Source of the DNA: Gemmataceae bacterium
GTDB taxonomy: Bacteria; Planctomycetota; Planctomycetia; Gemmatales; Gemmataceae
Assembly (NCBI GenBank): GCA_022842245.1
Contig: JALHPZ010000021.1
Span: forward strand, 1 to 64,000
DNA length: 64,000 nt
Reading direction: 5' to 3'
In this document: positions 24,506 to 25,797 of the stretch, in pieces
Numbering within the stretch: position 1 is the stretch's first letter
Layout: each line of letters opens with the position of its first letter
Position numbers and translations under genes: made by a program
Notes under the pieces: generated by a model
The model's input: only the letters and a program-made list of their open reading frames with translations
What the model was told of the DNA's origin: nothing
Databases searched by the model: none

Positions 24506-24614
24506 TTTTGCATTTTGAATTCGGCATTTTGCATTGGTCCGAACATGGCGCGCGTTTTACCGGGGTTCACGATGATTGAAACAATTCAAAATGGAGAATG
24601 AAAAATGCAAAATG
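24506..24614. repeat. AT-rich inverted repeat spanning the ABC-GNAT start codon
   Basis: Left part TTTTGCATTTTGAATT (24506-24521), right parts AATTCAAAATG (24583-24593) and ATGCAAAATG (24605-24614). The right arm supplies the ATG and first codons (MQNG) of the ATPase gene. The composition is unlike the flanking coding DNA and resembles the stuttering A/T words seen in other planctomycete intergenic gaps. Confidence 0.7.
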
Positions 24615-25797
24615 GGAAGCCCATCACGATCCGCTATCCGTTCGGGGCCGCGCGGCGGAGTTTGGCCGTCGGCGAAGTGGCCGACCTGTTCGGGCTGGAC
24701 GGGTCGGAGGCGGACCACGTCGTCGCGGAGAACCTGGAGCTGGATGCGCGGCCGACGGACGTGGTGCTGTTCACGGGGCCGTCAGGGTCGGGGAAGTCGA
24801 GCGTGATGCGCGAAGTCGCACGGCGGCTTGGGGCCGACGATGCGGGAAGTCTGGCGTTGCCGGCGGTGCCGTTGGTGGAGGCGCTGCCGGGGGCGGTGGA
24901 GGACCGGCTGGGGACGCTCGCGGGCTGCGGCCTGTCGGAGGCGCGGCTGTTGCTGCGCACGCCGGCGGAGTTGAGCGAGGGGCAGCGGTATCGCTTCCGC
25001 ATGGCCTACGCGCTGGCGATGGCGCGCGGGCCGATCGTGCTGGACGAATTCACCGCCGCGCTCGACCGCACGCTCGCGCAGGTGGTGGCGTTCAACCTGC
25101 GCAAGCTCGCGACGCGCGCCGGCATCGGCGTGCTGGCCGCCACGACGCACGAGGACATCGCCGCCGACCTGAACCCGGACGTGCGCGTGCGCTGCCGCGG
25201 CGAGGGCGCGATCGACGTCGAATACCGGACGGTAAAAAAAAAGCGATCGGCTTCCACGATGAGCTTTGGCTCTCGGACGGCACCCGATCCGACTGGCCGT
25301 ACTTCGCTCGGTGGCATTACCGCTGCCACGGCCTCGGGTTCACCCGCCGCGTGATCCTGCTCTGGCACGGCGCGGATCCCGTGGGCATCTGCGTCTTCGC
25401 CGCCCCCGCCGCGTCCCTGACCCTTCGCACAAAGCACTTCGGCCTCGCGAACCCGCGCACCGGCGTGGCGCTCGCCGCCCTCAACCGCCAGCTCTGGCTG
25501 CTGTCCCGTGTGGTGATGCACCCGACGTACCGTGGCGCCGGCATCGCGGCCGCGTTCGTCCGCCGTGCCTGCGAGCTGTGCCCGGTCGACTGGATCGAAA
25601 CGCTCAGCGCGATGGGGCGGAGCAATCCGTTCTTCGAGCGCGCCGGCTTCGCGCGGGTGGGCGTGGTGCGGCACACGCCGGGCGGCAGCCTCCGCGGCGC
25701 GTATGGCCGCGCGTCGAAGCGATCGACCACGCACCGGCACGCCGAGCCGGCGTATTTCGTGTTCGACAATCGACGTCGGCGGCTTGCATCTGAATAA
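24605..25797 (+). CDS. ABC ATPase fused to GNAT acetyltransferase by a -1 frameshift
   Basis: Two open frames that belong to one protein. The upstream frame (24605-25354 if unshifted, 249 aa) is a soluble ABC ATPase: Walker A TGPSGSGKSS at 57-66, signature LSEGQ at 123-127, Walker B IVLDEF around 144-149, switch His182. After Lys codons at 25235-25243 it degenerates into Ser/Thr-rich sequence and stops. The other frame continues the family fold as a GNAT domain (KAIGFHDELWLSD ... VVMHPTYRGAGIAAAFVRRA, acetyl-CoA loop RGAGIA) to 25797 and has no start codon of its own near its beginning. The switch lies in an A9 run (25234-25242) read GTA-AAA-AAA-AAG, i.e. A-AAA-AAG. A -1 slip yields 397 aa. 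ABC ATPases fused to an acetyltransferase are a known but uncharacterised family (COG2401-like). A sequencing error is the alternative. Confidence 0.8.
25234..25242 (+). other. A9 slippery run, A-AAA-AAG heptamer for -1 frameshifting
   Basis: In the ATPase frame the codons are GTA AAA AAA AAG CGA. The last seven bases of AAAAAAAG form A AAA AAG, the heptamer used by E. coli dnaX. The acetyltransferase frame (GGT AAA AAA AAA GCG) is entered by a -1 slip or by adding one A during transcription. It is the only A9 run seen in this GC-rich window. Confidence 0.75.

Follow-up and report, generated by a model that had tools for sequence, protein, structure and literature searches.

Gene organization at the locus

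The window analysed here is a stretch of 64,000 nucleotides from a Gemmataceae genome (G000; 6.43 Mb in 91 contigs). It contains an ABC ATPase and a GNAT acetyltransferase domain in two different reading frames that meet at a run of A's, preceded by a terminase-like gene. The features of this region, with conservation referring to the homologue alignment A1, are:

22774..23202, + strand: small ORF before the terminase-like gene, possibly a terminase small subunit
23153..24502, + strand: terminase large subunit-like gene (phrog_38, 6.6e-76), adjoining ABC-GNAT in Gemmataceae relatives
24593..24596, + strand: Shine-Dalgarno-like GGAG, 8 nt ahead of ATG 24605
24598..25797, + strand: mechanical 399-aa ORF in the -1 frame, from ATG 24598
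24605..25354, + strand: zero-frame ORF, soluble ABC ATPase of 249 aa, TGA at 25352-25354
24776..24799, + strand: Walker A GPSGSGKS, (nearly) invariant
24971..24985, + strand: ABC signature LSEGQ, kept
25034..25048, + strand: Walker B IVLDE, D and E invariant
25148..25150, + strand: switch histidine (ATTHED), H in at least 90% of the alignment
25234..25242, + strand: putative slip site, exactly A9, read GTA AAA AAA AAG CGA in the ATPase frame
25243..25797, + strand: GNAT acetyltransferase domain in the -1 frame, TAA at 25795-25797
25531..25548, + strand: RGAGIA, the GNAT motif that binds acetyl-CoA, invariant at R, G and G

The ATPase matches PF00005 (6.6e-8) and the phage 'ABC transporter' family phrog_293 (1.7e-27). 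Its motif set (Walker A, Walker B, LSEGQ and H-loop) is complete and a membrane domain is absent. The GNAT half matches phrog_886 (1.4e-14) and, weakly, Acetyltransf_1, Acetyltransf_7 and Acetyltransf_10. The initial annotation of this DNA described an ATPase frame that continues through the switch histidine, reads GTA AAA AAA AAG and stops at 25352-25354, and both its coordinates and its arithmetic are correct. The zero-frame tail between the A run and the TGA amounts to 36 codons, and a -1 shift at A9 is computed to join the two halves in a protein of 397 aa, so that the two proposed products of 249 and 397 aa are borne out as predictions from the sequence. A tryptic peptide predicted from the trans-frame fusion product is AIGFHDELWLSDGTR; a recoded replacement of the A9 run is AAGAAGAAG. 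The intergenic stretch directly before the gene (24508-24612) is AT-rich, with repeated AAAATGCAAAATG and CATTTTGCATT words.

The -1 frame in the window is open from ATG 24598, and a gene caller could therefore annotate that frame. We judge the resulting 399-aa ORF not to be the real gene because its first 210 residues are unlike the ATPase and relatives have stops in this frame at the run.

The run is exceptional in its surroundings. Positions 25234-25242 form the sole A/T run of at least 7 nt in the 64-kb window (66% GC), and only five A/T runs of at least 9 nt exist on both strands of the 6.43-Mb genome: the ABC-GNAT site, one in dnaX, an A9 lying in frame within a different coding frame, and two that are apparently intergenic. 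In the homologous loci described below, just 9 A/T runs of at least 8 nt occur away from the junction in 408 kb. The in-frame A9 (G000:C15:124606-124614, GAC CCC AAG ACG AAA AAA AAA GTG) is the genome's only further coding run of such length.

Frame state of homologous genes

Homologues were collected from 95 family, 392 phylum and 398 class genomes, GTDB contigs and IMG/VR. After recognised duplicates were dropped, 84 loci including the window were retained, and each junction was read base by base. The two halves are out of frame at the junction in 52 of the 84 loci and in one frame in 32. A slip-prone run (A7-A10 or T6-T7) is present in 50 of the 52 out-of-frame loci; 47 of these require a shift of -1 (36 with A9, five with A8, one each with A7 and A10, three with T6 and one with T7), while the other three, all with A8, require +1. 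A9 thus accounts for 36 of the 46 out-of-frame loci with an A run. The -1 A8 count retains one locus (G288) that looks degraded, its GNAT being cut short and a stop lying at the run. Among the 32 in-frame loci, 29 have no run, two have A10 and one has T6; both A10 loci are in HKST-UBA MAGs, one of them on a contig with a coverage of about 2. The frame change at the A run is therefore a conserved feature, as had been proposed. The heptamer A-AAA-AAG, present in the window at 25237-25243, is not kept in relatives; what they conserve is a long A run with G or C after it.

The split state is found in Gemmataceae (f1), Planctomycetaceae (f2) and a sister family (f102), is kept at about 50% protein identity, and occurs in genomes of one or two contigs (G118, G199, G246, G377, G415 and G624). 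A homopolymer error in sequencing or assembly, which the initial annotation had feared, might be suspected given that many of the sources are short-read MAGs, and errors of this kind could account for the three +1 loci. However, the out-of-frame run recurs in about 50 other genomes of three families, single-contig ones included, which excludes an artefact at this locus and leaves error with a negligible probability as an explanation of the pattern. Homologues joined without any A run, which had been considered potential evidence against recoding, do exist, at 29 of the 84 loci; they are outgroup or nested lineages and represent one of two states of the gene, not an artefact.

Access to the GNAT frame was assessed from its stop and start codons. 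In 22 run-bearing loci a stop no more than 45 nt ahead of the domain closes the GNAT frame, and no ATG, GTG or TTG lies between this stop and position +15; the stop is often a TAA made by the run itself (a T followed by A's). In these loci slippage is left as the sole entry to the GNAT frame. The earlier claim that the GNAT frame lacks a start codon of its own at its beginning holds for these relatives, whereas in the window the frame is open from its upstream ATG. The same 22 loci argue against separate translation of the GNAT domain, by coupling or by reinitiation at a start codon close to the junction. Such translation is likely for the two -1 loci that have no run, where the GNAT half has its own start codon after an SD-like sequence (ATG in L049 and GTG in L093; the ATG of G385 follows GGAAGGACC and the GTG of L093 follows GGAGATCAC), and the phages SSU5 and hairong have ABC and GNAT as distinct genes; as an account of the family in general it is extremely unlikely.

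Both halves are under purifying selection. In six pairs, dN/dS (NG86) was 0.16-0.23 for the GNAT half and 0.08-0.22 for the ABC half, for which one of the six pairs was not computable. Runs of A8-A10 are typical of phase variation, and a contingency locus in which the length of the DNA run toggles the GNAT half would be consistent with the run lengths seen and with the two in-frame A10 loci. In-frame lengths should then be common, but 50 'off' loci stand against two 'on' loci, and yet GNAT evolves under purifying selection; we rejected phase variation as very improbable.

In the tree of 70 rows, drawn by midpoint, the base consists of fused homologues from other families, A-run loci lie deep in both f1 and f2, and a group of 15 fused rows is nested in f1. 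The -1 A-run label must change at least five times on branches with good support, which indicates repeated gain or loss of the state. The tree holds two T-run rows, which form one side of one branch, and two later-found f102 genomes outside the tree (G512 and G616) likewise have T runs.

Another reading is that slippage merely rescues a fixed indel, the run having arisen first, its length drifting and the split state having no function of its own. The range of run lengths from A7 to A10 and the occurrence of in-frame A10 and run-less fused homologues agree with this scenario, and there is a published case of transcriptional slippage rescuing an interrupted gene (PMC4256274, tssM). Drift should fill all three frames, however, and 47 of 52 run loci (the in-frame A10 pair included) are in the -1 state, which moreover is still found at about 50% protein identity and has a U-run version in f102. 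We regard indel rescue as unlikely. The existence of the two in-frame A10 loci does speak against a programmed-slippage gene, and the short ATPase may be no more than a by-product, as fused-only lineages manage without it. The conserved zero-frame stop at +91 to +109 was considered as a sign of selected termination and rejected because fused homologues share the same stop.

Considered together, the homologous sequences make it very probable that ABC-GNAT is a conserved programmed-slippage gene, in which two out-of-frame halves are joined at the run.

Slippage by the polymerase or the ribosome

The initial annotation had likened the site specifically to E. coli dnaX, and this likeness was not supported. 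An SD-like element at the E. coli dnaX spacing (about 10 nt upstream) was not found in the upstream 20-mers, and there is no excess of downstream structure, with a mean z of -0.27 in 42 split loci compared to +0.06 in 28 fused loci (-1.18 in the window). The genome encodes two tRNA-Lys(CUU) genes and one tRNA-Lys(UUU) gene. Slippage of the E. coli ribosome on AAG has been explained by its sole tRNA-Lys (PMC5009743), and on this explanation tRNA-Lys(CUU) should weaken slippage on AAG. The lack of E. coli dnaX-type stimulators together with tRNA-Lys(CUU) favours slippage by RNA polymerase at the A runs. Other points for the polymerase are the prevalence of A9, the three loci that require the opposite direction, and the arrangement of the genome's own dnaX. 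In Thermus dnaX, transcriptional slippage takes place at a run of nine A's (PMC5009743 section 21; PMC1088944), and two Thermus-type features are found here, a run of about nine A's and a separate slippage candidate in the same genome (A10 in dnaX).

A different reading is a purely ribosomal -1 shift at A_AAA_AAG, A_AAA_AAA and A_AAA_AAC (in f102, U_UUU_UUC) with a faithful polymerase. One mechanism would then cover A and U runs alike, and most runs do offer an in-phase X_XXY_YYZ heptamer. The 47:3 bias toward -1 and the short runs of some loci (A7 in G032, and T6-T7) suit the ribosome as well as or better than the polymerase, and SD-like AAGGA or GGAG precedes the run in 2 of 4 f102 loci. On the other hand, the A-run loci have no conserved SD or downstream structure, tRNA-Lys(CUU) genes are encoded, three loci require +1, G512 has no perfect heptamer, and the dnaX genes of the lineage mostly have stops in both other frames. 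We consider a purely ribosomal shift a real but clearly less probable possibility. For the A runs themselves, these sequence features tilt the balance modestly from the ribosome to the polymerase, and the choice is not settled.

The four genomes of f102 differ from the A-run loci. All four have TTTTTT(T)C at the ABC-GNAT junction, require -1 and offer no start codon, and in two the SD-like AAGGA or GGAG lies 7-9 nt upstream of the T run. The U6-U7 site of f102 is most likely ribosomal.

Runs in dnaX of the same lineage

The dnaX gene of the window genome contains an in-frame A10 (L129:2673-2682; G000:C20:10904-10913); with A11 it reads KKKTTDSR followed by a stop, and with A9 it reads KKNH followed by a stop. 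Runs of A9-A11 are present in 46 of the 51 Gemmataceae dnaX genes examined, at about codon 378-407, and A9 or A10 occurs in 8 of 10 Planctomycetaceae tested. In the Gemmataceae genes with such a run, one extra A leads to a stop within 7-19 codons of where the read stretch begins (G032 is the exception), and one A fewer leads to a stop within 8 codons in roughly three quarters of the genes. The pattern looks like lineage-wide production of tau and gamma of the Thermus type. Two dnaX genes are inverted (L171 of G006 with A8 and L188 of G032 with A10): the zero frame stops right after the run, and the long product is opened by one extra A.

No A run of at least 8 nt is present in dnaX of any of the four f102 genomes (L243, L245, L248 and L250), the same genomes that have T runs in ABC-GNAT. 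This combination fits a lineage that has no A-run slippage and relies on a U_UUU_UUC-like ribosomal site instead, possibly in connection with a changed RNA polymerase. It concerns one clade, and G377, with A9 at the ABC-GNAT site and no run in dnaX, is an exception.

Protein family and genomic context

The protein is a member of an already known ABC-GNAT family for which DNA modification has been predicted, in agreement with the earlier remark that the fusion is a known uncharacterised family. PMC7824862 cites an earlier prediction in which GNATs coupled to an ABC ATPase would acylate a DNA base. The in-frame homologue L073, modelled with AF2 (pLDDT 73.5), has two domains and a disordered linker at residues 209-215, and the modelled linker would coincide with the position of the slip site in split relatives. 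The best viral match of this model is a Leptospira phage GNAT protein (TM 0.61/0.66), and a Mom protein is also among its viral structural matches. A full-length fold search in PDB returned mostly ordinary transporter ATPases and was uninformative on function, and comparison of the GNAT sequence with solved structures gave only weak N-acetyltransferase matches. A PADLOC assignment to defence was rejected, as it consisted of just generic ATPase matches and a methyltransferase model that hit the ParB-like protein.

Upstream of ABC-GNAT, Gemmataceae have a terminase large subunit gene (phrog_38), and in Planctomycetaceae the genes run ParB-like, ABC/GNAT, a short gene and TerL-like (phrog_9). The cassette of terminase-like, ParB-like and ABC-GNAT genes was located at 22774-24502 in the window, at L083:4371-8411, and in L201 and L203. 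The small ORF at 22774..23202 has a 33% match at the same position in G032 and no family match in profile searches. The same neighbourhood is found in phage hairong (ParB-ParB-ABC-hyp-GNAT-TerL-portal) and in Gordonia Sisko (ParB-ABC::GNAT-TerL), where ABC and GNAT are fused, and in part in phage SSU5, where they are separate. In the phages this set adjoins portal and capsid genes, whereas the planctomycete cassette is situated among chromosomal genes that look like housekeeping genes; no portal or capsid gene was seen next to it in the loci read. As the neighbours in these planctomycete loci look chromosomal by eye, the cassette appears domesticated, and its gene content suggests a phage packaging-end module as the source.

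Proposed mechanism and comparison with known systems

We propose that most transcripts of the window gene would be translated into a soluble ABC ATPase ending 36 codons past the A run. In a fraction of events at A9 the frame would be realigned by -1, as if the mRNA had gained an A; the ribosome would then enter the GNAT domain and produce the 397-aa ABC-GNAT fusion, as the conservation described above implies. RNA polymerase would be the more likely agent of the slip, in the manner of Thermus dnaX, with a ribosomal -1 shift possible or additional. The output could be free ATPase in excess of ATPase-GNAT, for example mixed ABC dimers with one GNAT; this guess draws on the phages, which keep ABC and GNAT separate or fused, and on the planctomycetes, which add slippage and restart. 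The setting would be a phage-derived chromosomal cassette, with acyl modification of DNA as the job predicted from the published proposal and the gene order.

The arrangement shares with Thermus thermophilus dnaX the run of nine A's, independence of RNA stimulators and two products with a common N-terminus, and the window genome's own dnaX has the Thermus arrangement. In Thermus, however, slippage truncates and the long form is standard, whereas slippage in ABC-GNAT yields the longer product, as it does in Shigella mxiE. Shigella mxiE and spa13 and Citrobacter tssM likewise join two out-of-frame ORFs by slippage at a homopolymer, in genes unrelated to ABC-GNAT. With E. coli dnaX the window copy has in common A AAA AAG and the -1 direction; ABC-GNAT differs in having neither a spaced SD nor a stem-loop excess, in the presence of tRNA-Lys(CUU), in a heptamer that is not conserved, and in that the shifted product is the longer one. 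The COG2401-like ABC ATPase-GNAT system, predicted to modify DNA bases (Iyer et al. 2013, as cited in PMC7824862), likewise pairs a soluble ABC ATPase with a GNAT domain and is linked to phages; Mom, as noted, figures among the structural matches of the modelled homologue. In planctomycetes, however, a slip site separates the halves, and the texts consulted on this system describe no frameshift.

A published survey of frame transitions (PMC3711429) includes clusters of ABC transporters, which it attributes to translational coupling, and acetyltransferase goes unmentioned in its main text. No earlier report of ABC-GNAT recoding was found in the literature searched, which was largely outside subscription journals. 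This agrees with the initial annotation, and the recoding appears to be new whereas the protein family is already known.

Few cellular genes of bacteria are known to use programmed recoding that is well conserved; dnaX, prfB, cso2 and a few secretion genes are the known cases. ABC-GNAT adds a recoding family conserved through a whole bacterial class, and its A-run, U-run, restart and fusion forms provide natural replicates of the gain, loss and exchange of a recoding site. Together with dnaX it constitutes a planctomycete candidate pair for telling transcriptional from ribosomal slippage, and it provides a way into an uncharacterised system that is predicted to modify DNA. Automated annotation will probably call such genes pseudogenes or pick the wrong frame.

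These observations lead us to a tentative speculation, which we hold at somewhat less than even confidence, that polymerase slippage on A9-A11 is a device of Planctomycetia common to dnaX and a domesticated phage-type DNA-modification gene, in which it would set the dose of GNAT on the ABC ATPase. The U run of f102, restart, and fusion elsewhere would then complete a set of four decoding solutions to one output.

Two further loci have unusual contexts. A complete genome of the same genus (G052, L040) has only the GNAT half; this candidate for a stand-alone GNAT was rejected, as transposase-like sequence replaces the ATPase half at its expected position. One contig classed as viral (L209, IMGVR_UViG_3300048836_001244) has a split gene with an A8 run, and may be a piece of planctomycete chromosome that was labelled viral owing to its terminase-like genes.
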